Source: Branchiostoma lanceolatum (lineage: Eukaryota; Chordata; Leptocardii; Amphioxiformes; Branchiostomatidae). From it: a stretch of 64,000 bases of DNA. Under the pieces are notes generated by a model. That model was not told where the DNA came from. It worked only from the letters and a program-made list of their open reading frames with translations, and searched no databases. The stretch is from the NCBI RefSeq assembly GCF_035083965.1, contig NC_089728.1, forward strand, positions 16,927,955 to 16,991,954, in the 5' to 3' direction. Position 1 is the stretch's first letter. Every line of letters begins with the position of its first letter. The position numbers were made by a program, and so were the translations under genes. Below, in pieces: positions 32,301-63,957 of the stretch.

Positions 32301-35300
32301 GTTGGGGGGACAAGGATGCAATGAAGATGGACATCTGTCTCCAGGCTCGTCTGTTTCTTGTGGCAGTCAGCCGTTAGGCCAGGCTAAGGTGCGTCCACTT
32401 TGCGATGTTATCCTGCTGACATTTCTAGAAGTTTGCAGAATTCTGACTGATGTTTACAGAATTCTGCAGAATTCTTCAGAACTGGACATAGCCCTAGGCC
32501 TGGAGACATCTAATTGTTACCTTGATTTTGATAACCTTTTGTTACAATGTTCATACTAAGCTAATGTAGACATTGAATTAATTTTGATCAATCTACTTCT
32601 AAGTACTAGAAAAATATGATAAGTTTATGGATCTAGATTGAATTTCTGCATTTAAAGTGTTGTCTGTTCTGGGTATTTCTGTTCCACCTTCTCTAATGAT
32701 CAGATGGTACCGCAGTCCTGACGATTGTATTACGCAATGCAAAGCAACAGCTCTGGCATTCTGTCCATCTTGACAGGTGGCCAATTGAGATGAGTAGTAG
32801 GAGGAGTTAATCTGATTGGCTGACAGCTGAATCTGATTGGCTGACAGCTGATTAGTGCCAACTGTCCCAGAAGGTCAAATGGTTAACATTGGGTTATTTG
32901 CCAGGGTTCGCTGCTGTTGGTGTCTTAAGCCATGTTGATTCAATTATACGGATGACAATCCTCTATGAAACCCAGAACTGATGCGAGTATGCGACAAAAA
33001 AAAAAGAGTGCCCCCAAAAAAGTGGTCGAGAAGGTTGTCAATGAACAAATGGCTCAACGCACAGTGCATACTACCAATAGATTCTTCATTTTGTTCTTTC
33101 ACATCTTCTTTGACTTTGGAATTGAATTTGGCATTGGCATCTATGACATTAATATCCATTTTTCGATATTTTTCTTTGCAATTTACGCCATACATTTGCC
33201 CATTTTGCAGCTACTTTGTATACAATTTACAGGTTTTTTTGTATGGTCAAAAACTTTTTTTTTTAAATACAGAGGAAAATTGATGCATGCACAAATGTCA
33301 ACCATATCAAATAAACATGGCCTAACATCATATTACAGATAAAGCAGTACTAGGGCTCATTGTTTCTTCATAAGAAATTCGGAGCTGCAGTAAACTAAAA
33401 ACCTATTCACAAGTCAAAACTGACTTCACGTTGGAAAACTACCTTTCATCAATTCGTAATAAATCCTTTATAGTTAACATATTAACCAAATTAAGAATCA
33501 GTTCTCACTGTTTAGAAATAGAAAAAGGTCGATACCATAATATACCAGCCAACCAGAGACTATGTCCTTCATGTCAAAATAGCATTGAAGATGAATATCA
33601 TTTCTTAATGACATACCCCGCATATACTGTAGATAGACGAAAATTAATGGATATGATCTCATGTAAATTCAGTAAACCCTTGCCAAAGGCAAACATAGAC
33701 ATGTTCAATCTACTTATGTCATGTCCCGACACCATATCTACGTACTTAGGCCAATACATATAATATGTAGCGCTTTACAAAAGAGAGAATGTATTTTAAC
33801 AGACCGAAACGTTTAACATATATTATATCATTACGCCATTTACGTTCAAATATTCTTGTGATTATAGTTTTCAGAATAGAATAGAATAGACTAGTTTAGT
33901 ACCCATTGTCACGTATTAATTGCACTGTCATTCTTGCCATACATTGTGCCATGTACAATTGTCGAGCAATAAAGTTCATTCATTCATTCATAACTTCCAA
34001 AGTGACAAAGTCATCTGAGCAAACTGAAACGCTTTCAGCGGTAAATTAGAAAAAATATTAGACAGTTTCTGATGACTACACCATGGGATGTGCTTCTCCA
34101 TGTACTACTAACAATACATTTCACCTTGACCTCTGACCTTTTGCAGGATCACAGCCACACCCCCTTCCCAGTCATCCTGTTGAAGCACTTAATGCAGTGG
34201 AGGAAAGAGGTAAGAGTATGAATATCATAATGATATTTACCTTGGCCAAGAAGAATCTATTTCAGAATCTTTTAATTGGGCAAAAACAATTACAGACAAC
34301 TAACAGATACCAAGATGTGTGAATGTATGTTTGTAGCTTTGATCATGATGCATATAGAAAACAGTTTTAATAATAACTTTTTTCTTTTTGCACTTTGATA
34401 ATGTTTTGAGTAAAATGGAGTAATATGATTATTTTGTTTCAGCATGAAGGAGATATGCCCAAGAATTACAAGGAGAAAGGTGTCTTCAAGGAGATGGTGA
34501 GGAAAGGTAGGATGGAATTTTTTTCAACCTTCATTTCTACCTTCAGTTGAAAATCCCATACAGATATGGCATAGACTTCTTGGCTTTGGCCGCTTTTCAA
34601 GAGTTCAAGGGATGCTGTAAGGGTTGTTCTCAACACTTTGTTTCAAATTGATACAATAACTTAAAGTCAATTTTCGATAATCGCAATCATGAGCTTGCTA
34701 ATGGAAACATTTTGAATTTCATCTTCATATAAGGCAAAATATTTGCTTGTCTACATGAATGAATGGCTTAGATATCCTAGGTATGTTTTTTTATTACAAT
34801 ACAAGGTTAATGGTTCAAATCCCAACCTATACCTGTTACAGTTCCTATACAATATATACTAATACAGTAACTGTAAATGCAGAAATGTTCGCAGTGGTTT
34901 TATGTCTGCGGTTTTCGCGGCAACCATTTCACAGCGAACTTAAAACCACCGCAAACATTTTTGTCCAATACTGTAGCCGTATGCGACTAAAGCACTGCCG
35001 CGCAATTAAAACCACCGTGAGCACTTCATTTTCCCCTTAGGCCACACCAATTTAATTTGGCCAGCCTTCTGTTTACACAATTTTTTTTTCTAAAATTTTT
35101 TTTTTGGAAAATAGAAATCCGTTAACCAAGAAATTAACTTGGTGTGGCCTTAGCGCGAAATAAAGACCACGCGAACTGAAATGCATTTACAGTTAATAGG
35201 TATGTCTGATTCAGTGCAAAGTTTAAGATATTAATGGAGCCTCTATACCGGTGTGCCTGTAGGTATGTGGGAGAATGAGGAGGGGCCAGGAGAGCCGGAG

Positions 35301-45497: not shown

Positions 45498-46975
45498 TTA
45501 ACCTACAATAAGTGTTTCTTCATCGGGGAACGTGTACTCTGGAACTTCGAGATTGTATGGGGCGGGGCCTTTCCTTAGCCTTCCCGACGCGTCGTAGTGA
45601 GAGCCATGGCACGGGCAGTAGTAGCCGCCGTAATCGCCCGCATTGGCAATCGGCACGCAGCCGAGATGCGTGCACACGCCGATCAGAACCAGCCACTCCG
45701 CCTTCTGCACGCGGATCTCGTCGGGTTCTGGATCTCTCAGCGTGTTGTGATCTACGGCGCGGACCTCGTTGACTTCTTCGTCCGTGCGATGGCGGACAAA
45801 GAGGGGCTTCCCGCGCCACTTGATGGTCACGCTCTTCCCCTCCGGGATCTCGGACAGCTTGACCTCGATCTTGGCCAAGGCCAGGACGTCGGCGGACGCG
45901 CTCATGGTGGTGACGAGGTCCTGTACCACGTTCTTGGCAGCGTAGGCACAGGTCACCGCGCAACCACCTACCAGCATGTAGGAGAAGGCCTTGCGGGAGA
46001 CATCGCTGCTAACGGCAGGCTTGTTGGGATCCTGCACATCGCGACGGCGGTAGTCGTTGAAGTCTGGCACGGTGATATCACTGTGGGCGAACCGCACCTG
46101 GCTTGGCCCTAAAGAATAAAGGAAAATTGAAAATGTCAGCAGGTGAGAAATCACTAAAAAAATTATTTTGAAAATATGACTTTCAACGCCATAATATTGC
46201 TTAGGTTGCCTTTAAAAGAATCTCCAGTATCCTAAGGAAATTTGAAATTAGAAAAACAGGAAAAGGTTAAACAAATTATTTTATGGTTTGGCAACATGTT
46301 GTGACTTTTAGTTCTTTGTTTTTATCAATATCAAGGGTAGTCCCTTCAGTTAACCGAGTAACTAATTTCCAAAGGAGCCCTTACGTTACAAAACCATAAG
46401 TTAGCTGCTTTGTTTGGTTCAAACTGAATCAAACTAAGTTACTGTTATCTACTGTATCAGGCCACAATGGATAGACAAAGATTTCGGGACACCTAAAATG
46501 TTATACAAATATGATTGAATATGATATACTGACAGCGTTATCCAAGTGCAGGTTGTATAAGCCGTGTCAAATATGGTGGTGGTGAGAGGTAGGCACAACA
46601 AAACTACGCAATCCTAGGCACTTTTCATAACAGACTGCGAATATCTAAATATCCTGTGACGTTGAGTTTTAATCCTTAGCCTTTCTTCCCTATCCTACAG
46701 ACTTTATCTAGTTTTACATCAGTGTATAAGATCGTAATTTAGCCAGGGATGTTACGTTACGTACCGTGAACACCAGAGGTCACTCGTAGCGCACTGCGCG
46801 GTAGCGTCTTGGCCATGGTGCCGCTCGTCTGGGGCTCGACGGGAGACGGTACCAGCACCGAGTCTGCTTTCACGGCGACCGCTGGGATCAGAGGCCGTAG
46901 CTGAGACGCCACACACTGCGATGTGGCGGTCAGGTACGGCGCCAGGCCGGCGCTACGGACGACACTGCTCCACAT
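45498..46975 (-). CDS. UQCRFS1: UQCRFS1, mitochondrial cytochrome bc1 complex Rieske iron-sulfur subunit
   Basis: Two minus-strand exons, 46765-46975 and 45498-46108, make 273 codons plus stop (the human protein is 274 aa). I chose the ATG at 46975 ([19 protein letters not shown]) over an in-frame ATG ten codons upstream because it aligns with the vertebrate presequence. The order is: mitochondrial presequence and matrix N-terminus (~1-77); [10 protein letters not shown]; a single membrane helix with [20 protein letters not shown] and the flexible hinge [17 protein letters not shown]; then the Rieske fold. Cluster ligands lie in CTHLGC and CPCHGSH, two Cys and two His, with the disulfide Cys pair also present. 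It carries electrons from ubiquinol to cytochrome c1 in complex III. The intron holds a fragment of the TTAA element family at 46152-46206. Confidence 0.97.
46152..46206. mobile_element. Solo end of a TTAA-type element (family G)
   Basis: The sequence ttttgaaaatatgactttca then acgccataatattgcttagg then ttgccttta is nearly identical to the right end of 58403-60195, again with TTAA outside GGTTGCCT. It lies about 45 bp into the UQCRFS1 intron, close to the exon 2 acceptor. Confidence 0.8.
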
Positions 46976-47126: not shown

Positions 47127-47420
47127 CTTACAGTGCAGTGGGGACATCTGGCGAGATGTACCTGAAGTGTATGAAGGAAGTTGCTGCTGACAGGATGATC
47201 CGTTATTGCAAAAAGGTTGTGGCTACTGTCAGGATGATCCTGTCAGCAGTGGAATTTTTTGCACTGCAGACAGGATCATCCTGTTAGCAGCGGAAAAATC
47301 TGCACTGCTGTCAGGATCATCCTGTCAGTGCAGATTTTTCCACTGCTGACAGGATTTTTCCTGTCAGCAGCGGAAATTTTTCTACTTCTGACAGGATCAT
47401 TTTGAAAATCTAAATTTCCT
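47127..47420. repeat. Palindrome array 1 with conserved leader
   Basis: A leader (cttacagtgcagtggggaca, tggcgagatgtacctgaagt, atgaaggaagttgctgctga) is followed by alternating palindromes built on CTGACAGGAT.ATCCTGTCAG and A/T spacers (aaaaatc, atttttc). At least five palindromes are seen at ~40-bp steps. The leader is repeated at 48178 before array 3. Confidence 0.85.
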
Positions 47421-47499
47421 GATAAAAAGCAATTGTTTGCCTGCTATTCCTCCATATGTTAGAAACGTAAAACTACAAATGACTCATACTATACTTAGA

Positions 47500-47850
47500 T
47501 CAAAATCACACGTGTCTGTGAATTCATGGGATTTATTGAACGTGGCAAAGATTCAGTAATCAATATACCCAGTGGGAGGGGGGTGAGTACTTTGTTAAGT
47601 CCGTTTCTCAAGACTGTTTAAGCGACTCAGTTTTCAGCATACAAAGTGAGTCCGAGTTGTAACAACGAACGGCTGTACGTGTTACTTGCACGTCAAGGCA
47701 ATAGGTACAAATACACGTCACTCACCGCTAAGTTCAGCGCAAAATCTAGGGTTGGAGTTGTCTGGACATGTTCTCGATGTGACGTTCGAACGCGTTATAC
47801 GTTGACGCATGTTGAAATTTGGCGGTAAACAGGACATTAGAGACAAACCC
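47500..47850. repeat. Left copy of a segmental duplication (pairs with 48775-48965)
   Basis: Shares tcatgggatttattgaac, cagtgggaggggggtg, gtttctcaag, ttcagcata.aaa.gagtc and ctgt.acgtgttacttg.acgt with the second copy. In this copy the block ends with a strong donor-like gtgagt directly after the G run, whereas the second copy has gtggat. Confidence 0.7.
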
Positions 47851-47984
47851 CCACTACAATCGCCCTTAATACGTCCCACGCTTCGATTTACGCCCAGATG
47901 AACACAGTTAAAATTGTAAAACATCCAGTAAAACAATATCCGTTGGTACAGTAACATATGCCAACAATTCTTTGAAAAAAAAGG

Positions 47985-48170
47985 AAAATCCTGTCAGCAG
48001 TAGAAAAAATCTGCACTACTGACAGGATCATCCTGTCAGCAGTAGGAAAACATTGCACTGCTGTCAGGATCATCCTGTCAGCAGTGCATTTTTTTCTACT
48101 GCTGACAGGATGATCCTGTCAGCAATGCAGATTTTTCTACTGCTGACAGGATCGTCCTGCCAATAGCCTT
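47985..48170. repeat. Palindrome array 2
   Basis: Four palindromic units (ctgacaggatcatcctgtcag, tgtcaggatcatcctgtca, gctgacaggatgatcctgtc, then gacaggatcgtcctgcc), with spacers aaaaaatctgcac, gaaaacattgcac, catttttttctac. It ends in tcctgccaatagccttaggc, the same terminal word that closes array 4 at 49566-49584. Confidence 0.85.
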
Positions 48171-48177
48171 AGGCAAC

Positions 48178-48575
48178 GTTACAGTACAGTAGCGACACCT
48201 GGCGAGATGTGGCTGAAGTGTATAAAGGAAGTTGCTGCTGACAGGATAATCCTGTATTAGAAAAATTTGATTTGCACTGCTGACAGGATGATCCTGTTGG
48301 CGAATTGGTTGTGGCTACTGTCAGGATGATCCTGTATGCAGTAGAAATTTTTGCACTGCATACAGGATGATCTTGTCTGCAGTAGAAAAATCTGCACTGC
48401 TGTCAGGATCATCCTGTATGCAGTGCAAAAAATTCTACTGCATACAGGATCATCCTGTATGCAGTGCAAAAATTTCTACTGCCGACAGGATCATCCTGTA
48501 TGCAGTGCAAAAATTTCTACTGCATACAGGATTTTTCCTGTATGCAGTGCAAAAATTTCCATTGCTGACAGGAAA
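48178..48575. repeat. Palindrome array 3 with conserved leader
   Basis: The leader repeats that of array 1 (acagtagcgacacctggcga, gaagtgtataaaggaagttg). It is followed by eight or so palindromes, mostly CTGCATACAGGATCATCCTGTATGCAG, separated by TGCAAAAATTTCTACTG-type spacers that are themselves nearly palindromic, with a repeat length of about 41 bp. Confidence 0.88.
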
Positions 48576-48843
48576 AATTTTCAGCCAATCAGAGCTCGCA
48601 AAAAGATTGCCCGCGCGAAAGGACTCAGCGAGGAACATGGCGGCAGCCATGAAGGCTGGAGATAAGTTTTCCAACTGGGCGGATTTCCAGGCCGCCCTGT
48701 TACTGAATGAGTACCAAGAGGCGAGCAGTAAACAAGACATGACTCGTAATAATAGAGCACAACCACACCTGTCTGATGAAGTCATGGGATTTATTGAACA
48801 ATTGACATTAGGATCCAGTGGGAGGGGGGTGGATTCCTTCTAA
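48576..48843 (+). CDS. Small unidentified ORF with promoter-like upstream sequence
   Basis: From ATG 48637 the frame encodes 68 codons to the TAA at 48841. It starts MAAAMKAGDKFSNWADFQAA and continues with LLNEYQEASSKQ and HLSDEVMGFIEQLTLGSSG. Upstream are a CCAAT box (cagccaatcag, about 48583-48593) and a CG-rich stretch running into gaggaacATGGCGGC, a good initiation context, so it looks like a real first exon. The frame can also be read open from inside the array. The protein has a faint look of the N-terminal segment of FAR1/ZSWIM-type MULE-derived proteins ('G..F.....F..AL..Y'), but I would not assign it. The downstream part is duplicated at 47510-47580. Confidence 0.45.
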
Positions 48844-49311
48844 TAAGTTCTATTAAAAGTGCGTTTCTCAAGCTGTCGATTCGACGGATTCAAAAATTTC
48901 AGCATAAAAAAGAGTCAGTTGTGATAACGAAACGCTGTTACTTGTACGTTGTACGTTAACTAGTAGTTCAGCTCAATTAATAGAGGGCTCGGATGGGAGT
49001 ATCAGTACCCAGGAGCATGTCAGAAATTTGGCACCTAGCATCGATGATATTTGAGATAAAACATGACTATAATCACGATCCGAAATATGCCCCATGAATA
49101 GGTTAAGCCTAGCTGAAATTATGAAATTACAATTGCCCGGTTTCCAGCTCATGCGTTCGCCGGATCCGATCGGATCGCGCTGATATCACCTGGTAGGTCC
49201 TTAGATACGCTGTGATGATGGCCGACATCTTGAAACACCTAATATCTGCTGTTACCGTAGCAATTACATATGCTAGCTTCTGATTGGTTGCGAAAATGCA
49301 TTGAAAAAAAG

Positions 49312-49575
49312 GACGATCCTGACAGCAGTGCAAAAATTTGCACTGCATACAGGACGATCCTGCCAGCAGTACAAAAATTTGCACTGCATACAGGACGATC
49401 CTGTATGCAGTGCAAATTTTTGTACTGCTGGCAGGATCATCCTGTATGCAGTGCAAATTTTTGCACTGCTGGCAGGATCGTCCTGTATGCAGTGCATTTT
49501 TTTGTTGTACTGCTAGCAGGATCGTCCTGCCAGCGGTGCAAATTTTTGCACTGCTGGCAGGATCGTCCTGCCATT
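49312..49575. repeat. Palindrome array 4
   Basis: Six palindromes (tgctggcaggatcatcctgt, gcatacaggacgatcctgcc and variants) separated by agtgcaaatttttgcactg spacers that are perfect palindromes themselves. It closes with tcctgccattagccttaggc as array 2 does. Confidence 0.88.
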
Positions 49576-49929: not shown

Positions 49930-52900
49930 ATGGGGAGCATACCAAAGCTTCCACGTTCAATTATTCTCCTTGTTCTCCTGGGTCTTATGATCACCCACAG
50001 GAGCGGTGCAGAGAAGATTCTGTTGGTACCAATGCCAGCGTTAAGTAGCCACTGGATGGTAGAGGCGTCAATCGGGCAGGCGTTGGTGGAAAAGGGTCAT
50101 GTCGTCACGGTGGTTGTTGAAGAGGACATCGTGGAGAAACGAAGAGCAGAGAGGCCCGACTTCATGTTTGAGACATTCCAGGACCACGGATTCGGTGCTC
50201 GCCTTCGGGAATGGGAAGACAACTTCTTTGGAATGGCAGAATCGGTGTCTGCCTATCAAGAACTAAGAGCACAAACCAACGCGGCCAAGTGGGCAAAGAA
50301 ACACTGCGAGTACCTCCTTGGGAAGGAGGGGGGGGATAGCGACGTGTTGCAGAGGTTGAAAACTGCGAAATACAGTGTTGTTGTTTCCGACCCCTATTTA
50401 AGATATGGCGCTGTAGTGGCAGCAACCATTGGGGCGCCCCACGTCGCCCTCAGCCCCATGCCCAGTGCGCTCGTCGACAAAGTGGCCGCAGGTGTACCGC
50501 TCGAATTGGCATACGTGCCGCCATCCGAATCGCACTGTACCGACCAAATGACGTTCTTGCAAAGAGTGCAGAATGTATTGCTCTTCGATCTTATACATAT
50601 CGCGAGAAGCTGGCTTAACGGTTACATGTATGACGATCTGGTCAGTAAGTACATCAGTGAGAAAGAAACTATCCAGAGTGTGACGTCACGCACGGACCTG
50701 TGGCTGTCTCAGACAGACACTGTGCTGGATTTTCCCTGTCCCATCATGCCCAACATGGTCACTTTGAAACTTTGAAACTTTATTGACAAATACCACATCG
50801 CAGACTGGCAAGTCTGAATTGGCGAGTATTTTCACAATTGCTCGCATAAAAATTATGTGATTATATACAAATATATATACAAAGTTTACCAATGGTGCTA
50901 TTTAAAAAGACTTTTCATTTTCAACACAGAACACGACGTAAGGACAGCTGACGTTGTAAACATTGAAACATTCGAGCGTGACAGGATTGTGTTGTTTGGT
51001 ACAATGGAGTAGGGAAAAACATGGAATTGTTAAGGAGATCAGTCACTTGTTCAGCAGGGATACAAGGTACGGAATCGGAGAGTTTTTGAGTCTGTTGGTG
51101 CGGCAGAGTGGTGTGTTAAGTTTCTGTTTGTTTCTGGTGTTCCGGCCGGATATGTCCCCTCTTGTGCTCGGAAGCCAGTCCCTGAAGTTGGACTCCATCA
51201 GAGATCTTGCAAAGTTGAGACACAAGTCCTCTCTTCTTTGTGCCAGTGTTTTCAGTCCTAGCTAATGCAGGGCGTGGGAGTAGCCAGTGTAGTCGTTGCC
51301 CAGAATAATCCGGCAGGCACGTTTTTGGATCTGTTCGAGTTTCTCAGTTTGCAGTTTGGTGAGGCCAGATGTCCAGGCAGGTGCAGCGTATTCTAGGATC
51401 GGTCTGATATAGCATGTGTAGATCGTGATCAGGTCATTACGCGATAACATGAACCTTTTGAGTCTTTTGAGGAGGTAGAGTTTCTTTGCGGCCTTTCCCA
51501 CCATCTGCTTGACTTGGACGTCCCAATGAAGGTTGTTCTGGATGTGGAGTCCAAGGATCTTAAGGCTGGGCGCGACAGCTAGCGGTGCATTGTTGACTCG
51601 CAGTGGTGGCAGAGGGGGATAGTTCCGACAGAATGTGATGTGCATAGCAAGGCATTTAGAGTCGTTTAGTAGCATATGGTTGTTTAAAGTCCATTGGCAT
51701 AACTGATCCAGATCAGACTGTAGGGTTGAAGGTTGTTTAAGCAGTCTTGATTGGAGCATGTTCATATCATCCACGTATTTCCATACCGGACTAGAGGCAT
51801 CAGAAGCAGCATCGTCAATCAATACCAGGAATAATATGGGGCCTAGTAGAGTTCCTTGCGCAACTCCACATGTCGGGTGTTCCCACTCTGAGAGAGCTCC
51901 ACGGTAGCGCACGCGCTGTTTCCTGTCGGATATGAAGCTGGCCACCCATGGTATGAGTTCAGGTCGGAGTCCCATGGTTAACAGTTTGGTAATGACGGTG
52001 TGATGGTGGACTCTATCAAAAGCTTTGGAAAAGTCTGTAGCTACGAGAGTGCATACTGTAGATGATTTGTCCGTCCCCTTGAATAGGCTGTCTACCAGAC
52101 TGACGAGTGCATACACTGTAGACCGCCCTTTAAGGCTGCCAAATTGTCGGTTGTCGAATGTAATGTCTTTCAAAATCCAAGAAAGGGCAAAATGTTCCGC
52201 TATCTTTGAAAACTGGGAGGTCAGGGAGATGGGTCTCAGTTGATCGATCTTGGCTGGTTTGGTTTTTGGTACCGGTACCACGACTGCTTGTTTCCACTGA
52301 CAGGGCACTATGCCGCTTGCGAACGAGGCGTTGAGAACATGGCAGAATGGAGAGCTGATTTCACAAGCGAATTCCTTCAACAGTTTCAGTGGTATGTTAT
52401 CCGGTCCCGGTGCCTTGTTTGTTTTCACTGCTAGGAGGCGCTTGTAAGTGTCCCAGACTTGCAGGGTGGGCAGCTGTTGTGGTGCCGGGAGAAAGGCGGG
52501 TAGTTGAGTAAAATACAGCGCAGGAAGGGCTTTGGAGACTTCAGCAAATCTGGCATTTATGGCATTGGCAATGGTGGTGCTGTCTTCAGAGTCGAGCCCT
52601 GGGAGTGTGATTCCACAGTCAGACTTTCTCGCGTTAGCCATGTTCATGATTTCTTGATACCACTGTCTTGGGTTGGCTGTCTTTAGGGATGAGACCCTGT
52701 CTGTGTAATATGTCTTCTTTGCTTTGGCCAGTGTTCTTTGTGTCAGGTTTCTGTAGAATTTCCAGACGGTCGGAGACTGTTTGTAAAAAGCCTTCTGTCG
52801 GAGGCTAATCAGCTGTTTTATCTTGGGCGTTACCCAAGGCTTGTCAGAGTTATGTACTTTGACAGACTTGGTAGGAAAGAAAGTGTTGATGGCGTTCTCA

Positions 52901-55900
52901 AGAGTGTTATGAAAGGCACTGGCCTTTTCTGAAACCCCCTGTGCATTATACACTTCAGTCCACTTATGCGCCGTGATCCATTTGCCGAAGTCAAACATTC
53001 CAGTTTCACAGAGTTTACGGACCTGTTTCTTTGTACACTTGTTGTCAGTGGTTTTGGATTCAGGGATCCAAAGGACAGACGAATGGTCACTAAGGCCTAC
53101 TGGAGGCAGTATAGAAGGACGCTTGTACAGGTATTTCATGTTGGTCAAGATCAGGTCGAGAATGGCATTACCTCGGGTGTTGTCTTTTACAACTTGGGAC
53201 AGGAGGCCGCCTCTGCAGATATCAGAAACATCAGTCCTATTAAAGTCTCCTAGTATTGCGAAACCACAATCTGGATACTTCGTACGCATGTTGTCGGTGA
53301 CTGCAAGTACATGGCCAGCAAAAGTACATGGTCCAGGTTGGCGGATTAACCCCCCGTGCCGGTCACCCTCTTTCTGAGGTAAGGTTTCGTCACATATATT
53401 ATGTTAATGTTAGGACGTCATGTTATGATGTAATGGTAGTCTCCAACCAGACCCAATGGATTGCAAAGACCGTATCCAACTGGAAGAAGGAGCTTGTAAT
53501 GCAATCCAAGGTCTGGAACAAGTCGGTCTGAACAAAGGCTATTAACATCTAATTGTTACCTAATCATACTGTAAGTGACTTTATTACTCTCTGTCCGCAC
53601 GGGCATGCGGCGCCATGCCGGGCTGTCACGGGTCGGCTGCGCCTCCAGACCGCGACTGAGAGGCTGTCCACTTGGGCAGGGCTGTACTGCGAAAATTAAA
53701 CTTCCCAGGAAAAATAAACTTAATGTTGCCAGCAGAAAAGACTTGGTCTCTTTTTCAAAATCAATTTGTTACGAAGATCGCTACCAAAACTGCTTCAATC
53801 GTCACAGAATGCGATCAATATTGACCAGTTGCGTCGGAACTGTGAATTCCCGCCATGTGGTCACAGCGTAGAGGCTGAAATGCGAGGGCGAAATTCTTGT
53901 TTATGTTTACGTTTTTTCCTTGTTTTTTTTCCCGATGACTCTCTTCGATTGAGTGGTGGAAACGCTGCGGGCAGGCGGGGTACTTGTAATATCTAGTAAT
54001 AGTGGCTTGAACCTGAAACAGTAAACATTGTCTACGACTGTTTTTGTAAGAATGGTTTTCCTTCATGCCACAAACATCGCCGATGGGTGAAAGAAACTGC
54101 TATTGTGAGAGCTTTTTACTAGGCTCAACCAAGGCGCGAACCTCCCACTGAGACGTGCGCGGGTGACTGGGCTTGTCCCAGAAATCGGTCATAAAAAGAT
54201 TAGTAACCCGGACATTCGTACGGCTGTTAGCATTACAACGAGGAGGGGCAGCGACACCTTTATTGAATAGAAATGCTCCGCCCTGTTTGAGTTATCGCAG
54301 ATCTTGGTTGCAAAACGTACTTCCTCTGCCAGTTTGATACGGTCTTTATGCAACCTATAGATCTGCTTGGAGATTAATGTAATGGGTCACGTGCCCATTT
54401 TCAGTGCTAATTTTTGTCCATTTCCACACACACACAAAGTTTTCTACCATACTGTAAAATGTAAATCGTGGAAATCAGCTATTAAAGGAGCAAATATATG
54501 CGGTAACTTTTCAAAAAGATATTTCGGAAAACCGATAGTAATCTAGAATGTCAAACTCAAAGAAGAAGATGTGAAGGACCAAAAATGAAGAATCCGGCCA
54601 TACTTTGGTATACGATTCTCTGTCTGTTTAGTCATTTCTTCAACCTTCCTGACCACGTAGATTTCATAATGAAGGCAACTTTTTTTAGATGTTTTTTTAT
54701 TGGCACGATCGCTTCAGTTTCGGGGTTCCAAGAGGATGTCATCGATGCAATCAAATCAACATGGCCTTGTGTCAAACAAAATATGGTTGCAATTGCGCGG
54801 CCTGGGTAGCCGGATATTTCAAGCCTTGCTGTGATAGTAATCTGTTTTATCTAGGAAATGGAGGATTTTATGCAGTCATCTGGAGACGATGGAGTGATCA
54901 TTGTCAGCTTTGGGTCGATGGTCAAAACGATACCGACGGAAAAGAAGGAAATCTTAGCCGCAGTCTTCGCGAAGCTCCGACAGAAGGTGGTGTGGCGGTA
55001 CGTGGGAGAGAAGCCGACCGGTCTGGGCAAAAACACCAAGCTGATGTCCTGGCTGCCACAGAATGACTTACTGGGTAGGTAGCGAAAACGAATATGTTTT
55101 GTTGGAGTCAACGCAGGTTCTGAAAGTATATTCTTACTTTACCCCAAACAAGAGCTCGGAGACCTTATACCTCCTTGATTATGCAAATTGAATCATTTGT
55201 TATTAGCATACTCCATTCTATGTCATTGCCTTCTGTATATTTATGTGATTTATATGTAGAACCGAATATATACATGTATATACATATCATGTTTATACAT
55301 ATGCACATGTATATCGCATAAATATATATCGTATACATGTATGAATATACTAATATATCGTATACTTGAATATCTTTTTCACGGAGGCAAAATAAACATC
55401 ACTTCCCTAAAATGGTATCAAACGTTACTGTAGAAATAAGAATAGAGCACCATGATGCTGAGGATTTTATAGGAAGCTATTCGTCTGTGATTTATTTGTT
55501 CATTAGGTCCCTAAGGCTGTTTAACTTCCACAAGTGTTCTTTGTTTAATCTACAAGTAGATCTCCACGGTACCAAAATCGTATCAGCTAGCCAGAGTGGT
55601 TCCAGTCAGCCATAGAAGCTACAATAAGGTGCCTAGCTGGATCTTCTCTGGCTGACTGGATCTTCTCTGGCTGACTGGAGCTTCTCTGTCTGACTGGAGC
55701 TTCTCTGGCTGACTGTAGCTTCTCTGGCTGACTGGAGCTTCTCTGGCTGACTGTAGCTTCTCTGGCTGACTGGAGCTTCTCTGGCTGACTGGAGCTTCTC
55801 TGGCTGACTGGAGCTTCTCTGGCTGACTGGAGCTTCTCTGGCTGGCTGTTACGATTTGACACCGTGGAGATCTGCTTGGAGATTTAATACCCTTTGTTGA

Positions 55901-57831
55901 CAAAAATAATTTCCGTCGCCTTCCAGCGCATCCCAAGACTCGAGCCTTCGTTAGTCACGCTGGGTTGAACGGTGTGTACGAGGCCCTGTACCACGGCGTG
56001 CCCATGGTTTGTCTACCGCTGTTTGGGGATCACCCCGGCAACGCCGCCCGGGTCCAGGCCAAGGGGTTGGGGGTGAAGTTGGACTTCGGAACGGTCACCG
56101 CGGAGCAGTTGTACCAGGCCATTCTTCACGTTCTCACCAACGACAGGTATTTCTGAATCGAATTTTGTAAGTAAATATGTACGTAGTTTTTATTTTATTT
56201 TATATTTTTTTGGTACTTTGAAAATAGACACATAACAATGAATTTACAAGTGAGTATATGACAGTGCAGGGCAAGGAAGGCGAAACGCTATTTGCTTATG
56301 TAAAAGCTTCCCTTATATACATTATTAATCAAATTATAACAATTCAGATAAATCAATTAGACAAAAAATAAGATTGGCAATAAATGAATAAATGAAACAA
56401 TATAGTTTGAATATAGTACAATAAAGAAGTTATCACAACCTAGTCAATTATACATGGATTTCATTAAATGTGAAGCTAAACTAGAAGTAGTACACAAAGA
56501 AATGCACATTTGGAAAATGTACGGCTATTTATAAAGTCAGATTGGTGTTTCGCATGATGAGATAACTTCTTCGGTGTACTAGCTAGTGTTTGGTAAGAAA
56601 TTCAGTTTTATTGTCAACTCTATTATATAATATATGTCATTGAAAAGTTTATCTATCAATAAAGGGCTGATTCACGGTACGAGCACGTCATGGGAAAAAG
56701 GTGCCGGAATTTCCCCCGATCGTGTGTCTGATGTTTTTTCATGACGAGCATTGCGCTTCAAGTAGCCTAGATGCCGGACCCTTAATCTCTACACGATACT
56801 GTAAATGCACTTAAATTCGCGTGGTTTTTTTTTCACGCTAAGGGGAAGATGGAGTGTTGGCAGTGGCTTTAAGTTCGCGGCAGTGCTACAGTCATATACT
56901 AGCACTCCTATAGTATAGGACAAAATGATCGCGGTGGCTTTAAATTCGCGGTGGAAAGTCGCCGCGAAAACCGCGAACATAAAACCACCGCGAACATTTC
57001 TGTATTTACAGTATATATTGTTGGGATTGGGGGTCTAGCATCCAGGCTACGTACATTCCATATCTTTCGAAAACATATCTATTGTAGGTTACAATGACAT
57101 TCAATGCTGTGTGTGATGACTATGATTTTGTGTGACGAGGTCTACGGCTGATTCCATGGCTGGGTTGCCCAAATACTTAAAATTTGTCCCGCCAATCATA
57201 ATGATGAATCATTATAACGCCTTGGAATGATGAATCATAATCATAATTTGTTTTGTGACTCTCTTACAGTAGTAGCCATTGTACTTGACATGAATATACT
57301 GTGGTAGCAATAGGCATACCATAGGAAAGGAGCTACATTAACGGCAGAGATGTGAACTGTAGCCAAACCCTCTGTGATTGTTAAAAACCTGATACAATCT
57401 ATAGAGAGAAACTGGGAGAAGAAAACAGATTATGTAGAAAGCCCGACAAAAACGCCTAAAAACACGACAAAAACCTGCCGGACCCACTCCTCTGCTTGGA
57501 GAGTATGATCATGACCTCATTTGATGTTTAATTCCGCCTTTCTCTTAGTTACCGTGAGACCGCAGCCCGCCTGTCCCGCCTGCACCGTGACCAGCCCCAG
57601 TCACCCATGGAGCGGGCCGTCTGGTGGATAGAACACGTCATCAAACATGGCGGACTGCCTCATCTCCGCGCACGCGCAGTGGAGCTGCCGTGGTACCAGT
57701 ACTACCTGCTGGACGTGGCTGTGTTCCTGTTGGCTGTCTGTACAGCTGTCCTGGGTACCGTGTGGTGCAGCTGTTCGTTCTTCTGTAGGAAGATTTGCTG
57801 TAAAAGTGGCGGCAAGCTGAAGTCTCAGTAG
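49930..57831 (+). CDS. UGT: UDP-glucuronosyltransferase (UGT), exon 1 broken by a LINE insertion
   Basis: Coding pieces: 49930-50760 plus 53334-53378 (exon 1, split by the LINE), 54855-55074, 55927-56146, 57549-57831. Without the LINE these give exactly 533 codons including stop, typical UGT length. Residues 1-27 are a signal peptide (RSIILLVLLGLMI). The acceptor half has the SSHW motif with the family's catalytic His. The donor half starts VIIVSFGSM and carries WLPQNDLL and the UGT signature (HPKTRAFVSHAGLNGVYEAL, GVPMVCLPLFGDHPGNAARV). A C-terminal membrane helix (LLDVAVFLLAVCTAVLG) precedes a KLKSQ tail that fits a KxKxx ER-retrieval motif. It transfers glucuronic acid or another UDP-sugar in the ER lumen. 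Exon 2 is 220 bp, the sum of vertebrate exons 2+3, and exon 3 is 220 bp. As sequenced, translation stops four codons into the LINE, so this allele should lack the donor domain. Confidence 0.92.
50761..53325 (-). mobile_element. CR1-like non-LTR retrotransposon, 5'-truncated, inserted in UGT exon 1
   Basis: Flanked by the 8-bp duplication ACATGGTC (50753-50760 and 53326-53333). It lies on the minus strand. The 3' tail (left end) has AATAAA followed by 8-bp GTTTCAAA repeats, in the manner of CR1-group elements. The 5' end (right) stops inside the endonuclease region. CR1 assignment rests on the tail style and the protein; a phylogeny was not run. Confidence 0.9.
51043..53289 (-). pseudogene. 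LINE ORF2 remnant: endonuclease C-terminus plus reverse transcriptase
   Basis: The frame opens inside the endonuclease (GDFN and LSDHSSV motifs). It then runs through a linker and the reverse transcriptase, with KAPGPDNIP, RPISL, ATDFSKAFDRV, GVAQGTLLGPILFL and the catalytic YVDD. One in-frame TAG at 51262 interrupts it, and the same frame then continues to 51043 through the C-terminal domain. Missing the endonuclease N-terminus and any ORF1, it cannot be autonomous. The otherwise open frame points to recent insertion. Confidence 0.88.
54395..54770. mobile_element. Family H TIR element, copy 4
   Basis: Interior atcttg/cttcctgaccacgtagat and tgaagaatccggccatactt correspond to 14937-15335 and 32927-33322. 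The right end is gatgtcatcgatgcaatcaa then atcaacatggcct. It lies in UGT intron 1, ending about 85 bp before exon 2. Confidence 0.65.
55558..55872. mobile_element. Inverted-repeat element housing a minisatellite
   Basis: agatctccacggtaccaaaa then tcgta at 55558-55582 is answered by tacgatttgacaccgtggag then atct at 55850-55873. Between the arms lies the 19-bp minisatellite, so the array probably grew inside a MITE. UGT intron 2, ending about 55 bp before exon 3. Confidence 0.7.
55636..55848. repeat. 19-bp minisatellite (~11 units)
   Basis: Unit TGGAGCTTCTCTGGCTGAC, with variants gatcttc, tgtagc and tgtctgac in the first half and identical units in the second half. Because 19 is not a multiple of 3, all three minus frames read the same SQPEKLQSARE-type repeat, producing two false ORFs. 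Confidence 0.95.
56798..57013. mobile_element. Family D MITE, copy 5
   Basis: Starts tactgtaaatgcacttaaat and ends acatttctgtatttacagta. The interior has repeated ttcgcg.tggttt / aaaccaccgcgaac motifs, an inverted structure. UGT intron 3. Confidence 0.85.
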
Positions 57832-58198: not shown

Positions 58199-58402
58199 CT
58201 TTATCGATCTTGCAAAACTACAATAAAACATTATCGTTACTTGTGTTAGAATATTGAGTGTTTTTATTTGAAGCTTATCATTAAACAACTTAAAACAAGA
58301 TATAGTTAATCAGTATAATTCGTCACGTTTTGACTTGTATGACACATTAATGAAGTCAATGTGTATTTTAGAGATGAAGACATCGCATGCATGCTATTTT
58401 AA

Positions 58403-60195
58403 AGGCAACCTAAGCAATTTCAGGGGCGAAAAGTTGAAATATTCTGGGGAAAGCAATTCTGTTTGGTGAAATTGAAATTGACATTTACTTCCCCATATTA
58501 GCACATTTGCATCATTATTTCATACTTTGGGCCGTGTAAAAAAGAGCACAGAAACAAGCCACAAAAGAAGTATTTTATTCATTGATGCCACCCAAAAATT
58601 AGACCAGATTCCAGCCGTAACCGTTTTCTGTCGACAATAGACCTCTTTCCAGTTACGGCGGCCATTTTGAATTCCCAGAGGTCAGCTCGGGGTCATGCAC
58701 CAAAACGAGGCAGTCCCTGACTCAGATCCTACTATAACCCTGGGTAATGCCAGTTATACCATCTTCGGTTGTACATTTCGCCCCTCTAAGATGAAATAAT
58801 CTAATATATGTGCCTTTCATATGGAGAAAATATTGTTGTGGACATTTTGACTTATTTTTGGCTAAATTTTTATTCGTTTTCCACAGTTTTTTATGGGTAA
58901 CTTAAGGACAGTGTCTACATTTGTATATCCTCCTTAATATCTTTTTTACCGTAGGTTTAATACAAGACATGGAAAGACTAGCTGCAGACTGGCATCCTTG
59001 TGGGTAAAAAAATTAGAAGACAATTGGCAGTTGTTCCGACAATTTCTAGATGCCAGGATCCGTTCTGCAAACAAAGCTGTATGGGGTGATTGGGGTCCAA
59101 TGCAGAACTCAGTGCAGTGGGAAAGGTGGGGTACAGACTGGTTGCGTTTTCTATTATTGTATATTTCTATGTCAGTTTGCTCCAATGATAGTTTTGGTAG
59201 CATACACTTCCACAAGTTGAGTCCAGATAATTGTGGGCTGAAATTTAGCAGATCTATCCTGTGATTTTGATGATTTCTCAATGCTAAGATCGGCATGGCA
59301 AAGAAACGCTATACCCGTAAATGTTATCGCCAGTGGGACAGGGATCGACCCCAGTCCCTACGCATCTGTGATTTACCCCGCCTTCCCCACTGAGTTCTGC
59401 ATTGGACCGGACCGGTCGACCCCATAGAGCTTAGTGTGCAGACCGGATCTTGGTATCTAGAAATTGTCGTAACAACTGCCAATTGTCTTCTAATTTTTTA
59501 CCCACAATAATGCCAGTCTGCAGCTAGTCTTTTCAGGTCTTGTATTAATCCTACTACATGTAGTTAAGATATTAAGGAGGATACATGGTAGAGACTGTCC
59601 TTACGTTACCCATCAAAAACTGTGGAAAACGAATAAGAATTTAGCCAAAAATAAGTCAAAATGTCCACAACAATATTTTCTACATATGAAAGGCACATAT
59701 ATTAGATTATTTCATCTTAGAGGGGCGAAATGTACAACTAGAGATGGTATAACTGGCATTACCCAGGGTTATAGTAGGATCTGAGTCAGGGACTGCCTCG
59801 TTTTGGTGCATGACCCCGAGCTGACCCCTGGGAATTCAAAATGGCCGCCGTAACTGGAAAGAGGTCTATTGTCGGTAGCTTCCGTCCGCGTGACGTCACA
59901 ATGCCCGAGCACATTGAGCCATGACCATGTGATTACTTCTCCGGAAGCGTTCGGGACTTATCGGTCAGAATCGCGTATGTTCGGAAGATTTGAAATGACG
60001 GCTAGCCTTCAAGTCCTCAGATTTTCAATAAGTTCCCACCACACAACGATATCGCATTTTTGCTCCATGATGGTCGGTATGCAATGGGTTATGGGATAGT
60101 GTGATTTTAACTTACTATGGATAGAAATCACTGAAAAAAAAAATAATAATTTTGAAAATATGACTTTCAATGCCCTAATATTGCTTAGGTTGCCT
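58403..60195. mobile_element. 1.8-kb TTAA-flanked element with a giant internal inverted repeat (family G)
   Basis: The outer TIRs AGGCAACCTAAGCAAT are flanked by TTAA (58399-58402 and 60196-60199), as in piggyBac or Kolobok insertions (inference). Inside, 58634-59130 and 59385-59872 form arms of about 480 bp, diverged by only scattered substitutions and small indels, around ~250 bp. No transposase frame was seen; an 88-codon plus frame at 58998 belongs to an arm. Confidence 0.85.
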
Positions 60196-60884
60196 TTAAT
60201 CTTCATCAAAACGTCAATATTTTAAGTGCAAGTTTTAGTCCATTGATGACATCAATCTGTTTTGATTAGAACAAGCTATAGACTAAGGTTGATTCGTAAC
60301 TCTTTAGATGACGTATATGAATAATTGTTGTGAGCAATTCACTCATTCAAATAGCAATCAAATAAACACGTACATCATGTTTTGAATTGTAAACGAGCAA
60401 TTTTTAAAAAGTTTAAATCCCATAAGTAATCGCATTGTATTGTAAGGTAGTTTAATCACCTCACGCGGCGGACATGATAGAATGAAAATGAGACCAAAGA
60501 GGCAAAGAAAAAAAAGTAATGCACAGATTTAGTTTTTGCTCCCAAATCACATTAAGTTTTCAAATATGACATCCAATTATCAATGTGATAACTAGTGTAA
60601 TGCACAAAAAAAGCAATTTGAAGCCACGTTGACCGATCCCATAGTTCTGCCCTCCTCCGTCGAAACCTAGAAGTGCAAAATAAAAACATAGAAATGCAGA
60701 TATTTGAGGGGCATGCCGCCACTTCCTCATTGGTAGATTCTCTAATTAACAAGCGATCACTGGTTGAGCTGCTAATTGTGATGGACAGTTAGGACCGGTC
60801 TAATGTTTTGCCACAATGGCCTCGTTTTCGATTTCCTTCTATCATGTCCGCCGCGTGAGAAAGGTGTATACTTCCGCGCAGGCA

Positions 60885-61616: not shown

Positions 61617-63957
61617 TCACCAGGTACTACTTGGTTTTCTGTTTGTCGGGATGAACAAAGTGGCGCAGGCCACTCCGTCCATGAACTCTGGAAGATCGGG
61701 ACATTTCACCCAGTTGTCATGTAGGCCATCGTACTGTTGTACACTCTTACTACACTTTCTCTTTAACCATGAGAAACCCCCAACCATGAAGATATGATGT
61801 TTCAAAACAGCCGCTCCAGCGTAACACTGCGGGAACGGCATCATCTTTACGTTAGTCCATTGGTCCGAGTCGGGGTCGTAACATTCGGTACGGTGCACGT
61901 GGATGAGCTGACCGTGTCCGTTGTAGTGGACGCCGCCGAAGACGAAGAGGCGGTCCCGTAGAGAGACCATCTGGTGGCCGTCGCGTGGCGCGTACATGGA
62001 AGCCCTCGCCGCCCACTCGTCCTCAGAAGGGTCGAAGACTAGGACGGTGTTTTCTACGCCCATAGACTCGGTACCTCCTCCACTGATGTACCTATGTGCA
62101 CAACAATGGTAAACAAACAATGATTAGGAAACTGACAACGCTGGCATTGTGCATGTAATTGTACCGGTATCAGGACAACTCGGCACCAAGACAACTCGGC
62201 ACCAGGACAACTCGGCACCAGGACAACTCGGCACCAGTTCAGTGAAATGTATATTTTCGGTCTAAATATCACCCCAAACCCTAGAATTAAACATTTTGAA
62301 GCAATGTATGCCAAAAGTGCTCAATAATTTCTGTCGGTATATGTCCTTGGCATCCTTGCGACAAATTTCAAGCCATTTGGTTGTAATTCCAGGGCACAGG
62401 AGACCTAAATATACACTTTTTGATCTAAAATGAAGAAAAAATTCAAACTAATAATTGTAAAGGCGTATATCGTTAGATTGCATAGTATGCCGAATTGTTT
62501 GACATTCATTCTGTGTAAAAAAAGATTAAGGTGTCGAATTGTCCTAGTGCCGAGTTGTCCTGCCTGGTGCCGAGTTGTCCTGCCTGGTGCCGAGTTGTCC
62601 TGGTGCCGAGTTGTCTTGGTGCCGAGTTGTCCGACATTCATTGTACCACCCGCGCCCAATTAAAAATAATGTTTTCCTGTATATGCATTTAAGTTCGCGG
62701 TGATTTAATTTCGCGGCAGGGAGAAAATGGAGTGTTCGCGGTCGTTTTTAGTTCTCGGTTGAAACATGGTGGTAGGTGGGTGGGTAGAAGACAAAAGAAA
62801 CATTTTCGCGGTGATTTTAAGTTCTTTGGTGAAGCGCTAAAGGTTGCCGCAAAAACCGCAAACCACCGTGCACTTAAATGTATTTATAGTATCTGATCGC
62901 GACTTTAATATAAGGTACGAATGGGAAGAATGTTTGAATATCGATTTAAGTGACATTTTACTCACAATTTTCCCCGAAGTTCGGCTCCTGCATGTCCGCT
63001 CCGAGGTTCGCCGAAGGCGGTGACGAAGGACCACTCGTTAGTTTCCGGATCGTACGACTCCACCGACGCCAGACGACCCTCGGGCCCGATGCCTCCGACG
63101 GCGAACAGGCGACCGTACACCGACGCCCCGAGGAAGAAGGACATCCGGGATTGATTCATACTTGCAATTTTGAACCACTTGTCATGCACCGGATCATACC
63201 TGTGAAATATTAATAAGAATTAATGCCAACATTATCATGGTTTCTTCGGACGAAAGTTAAGCATTATTGCGAACCAAAAGAAATGTTTGAAGATTGATCA
63301 TAAATTAAAACTCATATGAAAGAAATTTAAAAAAAAACTCGTTGTACGAAATGGTGAGCAGAAAAGGGAGAATTCATCAGGAGCAAAAAGAGTGACTCAA
63401 AGAGAAGGAAATGCAGAAAAAAGATATAAAAGAAAAGAATAAGTTAAGGAAGTTGTTAAGCGCTGAGCTCTGAGATTTCCTACCGCTCGCGTGCCAAATC
63501 ACGCACGCTCGCGCCAGAATGTGCTCTCGCGAGAGAAGATTCAAAATGGCGCTATTGTTTGTGAAAATGAGACTATTCTATTGGTAGCTCAGGGGCTGGG
63601 GATCACCAGAACCGACTGGAGGGTCTATGCCGAGAGCAGACCAGCCTGGCGAGCCCTATACATGTCTGCAGCCGCCATGCATCAGACACTGATGCCTGCG
63701 AACGATTGATTATTGGTAGCTCACCTTAAAACTGAGCTCTGCGGTTTCTTCTTGCCATTTCTCGGGCCTGGCCACCTGTCCTGTCCGCCTACCACGTACA
63801 GGAAGTTCCCCAGCACGGCCACGGAGTGATGGCTCCGCTTTCCGCTGAGTTCGGTCAGCTTGTTCCACTTGTTCGTCTTGGGGTCGTGACACAGGATGTC
63901 TTTGGACGCGTCTACCCCACCGTTGGACAGCATTCTGGTTCCACCTACCGTTGACAT
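61617..63957 (-). CDS. Kelch-repeat protein, C-terminal three exons (partial)
   Basis: Minus-strand exons: about 63957 (5' limit uncertain) to 63725, 63199-62966, and 62091-61617 with the stop at 61617. Junctions keep frame (SSVLR|YDPVHDKW and LRGK-L|YISGGG). Blades of a beta-propeller are visible: TVGGTRMLSNGG, LYVVGGQDRW, LFAVGGIGPEG, LYISGGGTESM, LFVFGGVHYNGHG, IFMVGGFSW. Each is followed by a YDP..D.W or FDPSEDEW strand, so about six repeats, a full propeller. In KLHL-type proteins this domain recruits substrates to CUL3 ligases, with BTB and BACK domains N-terminal. Those would be off the right edge, so membership in KLHL is inferred. The precise paralogue is not recognised. Confidence 0.85.
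62166..62639. mobile_element. Foldback-like element: TIRs made of tandem GGACAACTCGGCACC units
   Basis: The left arm (62171-62235) has four direct units of about 16 bp (caggacaactcggcac). The right arm (62531-62631) has five or six units in inverse orientation (gtgccgagttgtcct). A unique A/T-rich centre of ~300 bp has no transposase. ATTGTACC lies outside both ends (62158-62165 and 62640-62647), an apparent 8-bp TSD. It is in the kelch gene's last intron. Confidence 0.88.
62676..62892. mobile_element. Family D MITE, copy 6 (degenerate)
   Basis: ctgtatatgcatttaagttc at the left and cacttaaatgtatttatagt at the right; repeated ttcgcgg.gatttaa inside. It lies 74 bp from kelch exon 62966-63199, in the intron. 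Confidence 0.7.

Follow-up and report, generated by a model that had tools for sequence, protein, structure and literature searches.

A recent LINE insertion in the first exon of an otherwise intact UDP-glycosyltransferase gene of Branchiostoma lanceolatum

The locus described here raises the question of whether a gene that is now cut in two by a mobile element was working when the element arrived, how long ago the insertion occurred, and whether the broken copy is shared by the whole species. The stretch of DNA analysed (hereafter the window) comprises 64,000 nucleotides of the lancelet Branchiostoma lanceolatum (NCBI RefSeq assembly GCF_035083965.1, contig NC_089728.1, positions 16,927,955 to 16,991,954), and all coordinates below refer to it. 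It contains a UDP-glycosyltransferase (UGT) gene with four exons on the + strand, at 49930–57831. A long interspersed nuclear element (LINE, a non-long-terminal-repeat retrotransposon) of 2565 bases sits inside exon 1 of this gene, after codon 277, on the − strand (50761–53325). A recent LINE insertion in an otherwise intact gene is supported, and it is the nearly intact frame of the LINE and the intact frame of the UGT that carry the argument. We are highly confident that the UGT gene was functional when the LINE entered its exon 1 through target-primed reverse transcription, giving an allele that is recent, most likely null and probably still segregating.

The exon starts with the start codon at 49930, in the context GCCATGG. 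Its left part (49930–50760, +) is open up to 50760 and matches the Pfam family UDPGT (4.7e-30, profile positions 2–247). This flank reads ...IMPNMV and then runs into the 3′ tail of the LINE, where four further residues, TLKL, are followed by a stop at codon 282 (50773–50775, bases 13–15 of the insert). On the far side of the LINE, the right part of the exon (53334–53378, +) reads QVGGLTPRAGHPLSE in the same frame through to the donor GAG/GTAAGG at 53378. A perfect target-site duplication of eight bases, ACATGGTC, is found on the + strand exactly at both ends of the insert, with the left copy at 50753–50760 and the right copy at 53326–53333. The word ACATGGTC alone is not rare, as it occurs four times in the window against 2.19 expected. 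An identical 8-mer at the exact spacing of 2573 bases is seen at only one of 61,419 window positions, and this sole pair must be the duplication pair. The perfect duplication reported in the initial annotation is confirmed. The insert together with one copy of the duplication amounts to 2573 bases, which leaves a remainder of 2 on division by three, and the insertion therefore shifts the UGT frame as well as stopping it.

When the flanks are joined so that a single copy of the duplication remains, the four exons measure 876, 220, 220 and 283 bases and encode 532 codons and a stop, with no internal stop. Exon 2 (54855–55074, +), exon 3 (55927–56146, +) and exon 4 (57549–57831, +) each match UDPGT on their own (3.4e-27, 2e-27 and 9.2e-28, respectively), and the last of these carries, by reading, a hydrophobic C-terminal segment before the stop codon. 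The three introns are all GT-AG, with phases 0, 1 and 2 as deduced from the exon lengths, donors GAG/GTAAGG, TGG/GTAGGT and CAG/GTATTT, and acceptors ending in CTAG, CCAG and TTAG. The joined protein gives one match to Pfam UDPGT (PF00201) of 462 bits (3.5e-138; residues 29–524, profile 2–495 of 499), compared to 105 bits for the left part alone. The left part covers profile positions 2–247 and exon 2 starts at 264, with the right part of exon 1 lying between these profile stretches; the residues between bridge the gap, so that the halves of exon 1 are complementary with respect to the profile. The joined protein matches as a single stretch. In the PDB, 123 distinct sequences match the joined protein (E up to 0.001), and the closest among the best 60 of these are human UGT2B7 (7.4e-58) and UGT2B10 (4.3e-57), matched over the C-terminal half. 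SHW begins at residue 40 and SDP at residue 153 of the joined protein; these would supply, as in human UGTs, the catalytic His and Asp that lie in the N-terminal half. The initial annotation had proposed, from the letters, that the UGT frame enters the LINE tail and stops, that it resumes after the second duplication copy to reach a proper donor, and that removal of the LINE and one copy restores 532 codons in correct phase. All of this is borne out, and the further proposal that the gene was intact until the insertion gains support from the undamaged frame and the full-length UDPGT match. No additional UGT copy or alternative first exon was found in the window by tblastn of the joined protein (E up to 1), which returned five matches, all to the gene's own exons. 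Intron 2 holds a 19-base minisatellite, CTGGAGCTTCTCTGGCTGA, at 55637–55848, with 11.2 copies and 95% matches.

The inserted element is identified as a LINE by a match to the reverse transcriptase family RVT_1 (7.2e-22, residues 356–597 of a 689-aa piece), by its PDB matches, which include R2 and LINE-1 open reading frame 2 (ORF2) proteins, and by the flanking duplication. Of the ten PDB sequences that it matches, seven have R2 or LINE-1 in their names, and the other three carry generic reverse-transcriptase names. Translation of the − strand reveals an ORF2 remnant (51046–53325) that starts near the end of an endonuclease-like region, includes the reverse transcriptase and reaches the C-terminus. 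The endonuclease-like region was recognised by reading, from the motifs ILGDFN and SDH, and a structural search of this fragment gave a best E of 0.06, which is not significant. The 5′ truncation was likewise judged by reading, as the frame begins late in this region. The frame comprises 762 codons, the first two of which fall within the duplication, and it has no frameshifts and one stop (codon 690, 51262–51264, −), as the initial annotation had noted; the stop at codon 763 is probably the natural end of the frame. The 72-aa piece that follows the stop at codon 690 matched no Pfam family. At the 3′ end of the element (50761–50780, −), reading shows around 2.5 copies of the 8-base unit AAGTTTCA adjoining AATAAA (AATAAAG). 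This octamer repeat suggests that the element may belong to the CR1/L2 group. Truncation at the 5′ end, a repeat tail at the 3′ end and a short duplication such as the 8-base one here are marks of target-primed reverse transcription. Elsewhere in the window the tail pattern occurs at chance level (four matches with up to three mismatches, of which two are in the LINE, against 2.19 expected). Relatives of the LINE were also sought outside the window, with no pattern matches in viral contigs and three in prokaryote genome contigs, none of which was confirmed.

How recent is the insertion? The initial annotation had argued for youth from both the perfect duplication and the one-stop LINE frame, and the second part of that argument carries more weight than the first. 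Sixteen unchanged duplication bases permit up to about 19% divergence, so a perfect duplication is a poor indication of a young age. A better clock is provided by the LINE frame, as a truncated LINE is presumably unconstrained. Single changes that create a stop account for 272 of the 6849 possible in this frame (about 4%), and frameshifts from indels (insertions and deletions) come on top of these. With a single event in 2286 bases, the 95% upper bound on divergence is 5.6% when indels are ignored. The bound falls to 1.5% at 0.1 indels per substitution and to 0.8% at 0.22. The latter ratio is the quotient of the small-indel and single-nucleotide polymorphism (SNP) rates of the Chinese lancelet, 0.98%/4.39%, as given in the available part of PMC4284660; these rates are genome-wide and not specific to coding sequence. 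For the UGT frame, with no events in 1596 bases, the bound is 0.7–1.4% at indel ratios of 0.22–0.1 and 4.9% with indels ignored. A joint bound from both frames is 0.5–0.9%, but this is more assuming than the LINE bound, as the lack of lesions in the UGT frame may have another cause, for instance exchange with working alleles.

These bounds can be set against lancelet diversity, which is published as 3.2–4.2% (PMC12500494, in the accessible portion); for the Chinese lancelet, the accessible text of PMC4284660 gives a SNP rate of 4.39% and a synonymous diversity of 7.0–7.5%. Taking the age at its 95% bound and assuming neutrality and random mating, we computed the chance of fixation, meaning that all members of the population trace back to a common ancestor that lived after the insertion, for 24 combinations of indel ratio, age bound and diversity. 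In the 16 combinations that count indels, at a ratio of 0.1 or 0.22, this chance ranges from 0.10 down to 1e-14; all but one of the 16 values are under 0.03, and five are under 1e-6. On this comparison we consider that the insertion is probably still segregating in the species, a conclusion that depends on counting indels. The alternative is that drift in a small population, or selection favouring loss, has fixed the insertion in the species and that the locus is a young pseudogene. Only a single haplotype is observed here, and the eight combinations that ignore indels give fixation chances of 0.08–0.91. The low values obtained with indels counted and the absence of any lesion in the remainder of the UGT both argue against fixation, which we regard as unlikely. 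Several points do weigh against a young and segregating insertion. The LINE frame alone, with indels ignored, permits the full 5.6% divergence and gives fixation chances of 0.40 to 0.91 across four diversity values; even with 0.1 indels per substitution, the lowest published diversity (3.2%) leaves a chance of 0.10. The single stop in the LINE might predate the insertion. In addition, blastn of the insert against the window (E up to 1) found only the insert itself, and with no other copy there its divergence is not directly measurable.

The most probable course of events is that the LINE arrived by target-primed reverse transcription in exon 1 of a functional UGT gene, was truncated within its endonuclease region on arrival, and left the 8-base duplication behind. 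The insertion allele now encodes no more than 277 residues of the UGT followed by TLKL, which is the N-terminal half of the protein, and this truncated product lacks both the half that binds the UDP-sugar and the membrane segment at the C-terminus. As the stop lies in exon 1, the transcript is likely subject to nonsense-mediated decay, and we infer that the allele is most likely null. This would not hold if the LINE were spliced out as a new intron, since the protein would then be close to normal or merely shortened. The 19 donors and 199 acceptors considered form 27 frame-keeping GT/AG pairs able to remove the LINE, including one (last exon base 50757, next exon base 53337) that removes only V277 and Q278 besides the LINE. 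The best-scoring pair, 50640/53337, has a good donor (6.4, equal to two of the gene's own) and costs 41 residues. However, on a splice-site scoring matrix, the acceptor at 53337 that both pairs share is weak, at 1.9 compared to 7.1–8.4 for the gene's own acceptors, and the donor at 50757 scores 2.2 compared to 5.6–10.4 for its own donors. Rescue by splicing thus seems very improbable, and we give equally little credence to the LINE as a newborn intron, with the weak sites 50757/53337 used in some transcripts at a cost of just V277–Q278. If that were the case, the insertion allele would be partly functional, and we would be looking at an exonic LINE becoming an intron while still segregating. 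An assembly artefact, in which LINE sequence was misjoined into the UGT exon, also deserves consideration, as repeats are a frequent cause of misassembly. A misjoin is not expected to yield an exact 8-base duplication at the LINE 3′ terminus, and both sides carry on the same exon in frame, so we think an artefact scarcely credible.

The sugar donor of the broken gene can be considered from its UDP-sugar signature, FVSHAG...LFGDH, in exon 3 (55947–56033). The signature ends in Asp-His, not Asp-Gln, with the His at residue 401 (codon 56031–56033). The strict PROSITE PS00375 pattern, with Gln at its end, does not match the protein, which by reading differs from it at the last residue only. In the available part of PMC10932239, the residue at the end of the signature is given as His in homologs that recognise UDP-galactose, a His in human UGT8 is mentioned, and the switch is described as not simple. 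The broken gene may thus encode a galactosyltransferase-like UGT, possibly using UDP-galactose, to judge from this signature.

Several further features lie around the gene. Upstream lies a Rieske protein of ubiquinol-cytochrome reductase (UCR_TM and Rieske domains, 45498–46154, −), and then a 41-base unit, whose halves around CAGGATCATCCTG and GCAAATTTTTGC are nearly palindromic and which forms four separate arrays at 47226–49570; from the end of the last array to the start codon of the UGT is a distance of about 360 bases. On the other side, the UGT is closely followed by a large fold-back element (58399–60199) with 27-nt outer inverted repeats (93%) and arms of 287 nt (58632–58918 and 59588–59874) that are 97% complementary. 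The neighbouring frame on that side has kelch repeats (61617–62120, −). At 62171–62632, two arrays of a 16-base minisatellite, one of CAGGACAACTCGGCAC and the other of its complement, run in opposite directions on either side of about 290 bases, an arrangement that resembles a small element with inverted tandem repeats at its ends. Further away, a 110-aa frame with CPSC...DEYHFL (33431–33763, +) resembles the zinc-binding tails that certain LINE reverse transcriptases carry. No RNA families were matched in the window.

In the open-licence literature we found no published record of this insertion, and among the open-licence matches listed no paper by title concerned lancelet LINEs, amphioxus UGT genes, or lancelet or exonic LINE insertions. 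A close comparison is with polymorphic insertions in the Chinese lancelet, for which the available part of PMC4284660 counts 36,859 large allelic indels and ascribes 65–77% of them to mobile elements. As there, we have a kilobase-size mobile-element indel with an age within allelic diversity; unlike there, it interrupts the coding part of an exon in a gene that can be identified, and its polymorphism is deduced. A study of gene presence–absence variation in B. floridae and B. belcheri describes, in its accessible portion, no robust association with flanking mobile elements (PMC12373286). A read-coverage survey of gene presence would, by our reckoning, probably score the LINE-split UGT as present. 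The Ugt86Dd gene of Drosophila provides another putative loss-of-function UGT allele, a 22-bp frameshift deletion that segregates (PMC5586381, in part available). That case differs in being a small deletion and not a LINE, in an insect, and in having had its function tested. A LINE is likewise found in an exon in the human RP1 case (exon 4; PMC11919084, in part available), although that insertion is a human LINE-1 of 5.6 kb, in a disease family, and was shown to segregate with the disease. What the lancelet locus offers is an exonic LINE insertion caught early, with its duplication, an otherwise intact gene and an element whose age can be roughly estimated. If it segregates, comparing carriers with non-carriers would amount to a natural knockout experiment on one UGT whose donor site is of the His type and possibly galactose-using. 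Overall, as most large allelic indels of the Chinese lancelet are ascribed to mobile elements, the LINE that splits this UGT is a clear case of a process already known, and not a new kind of system.

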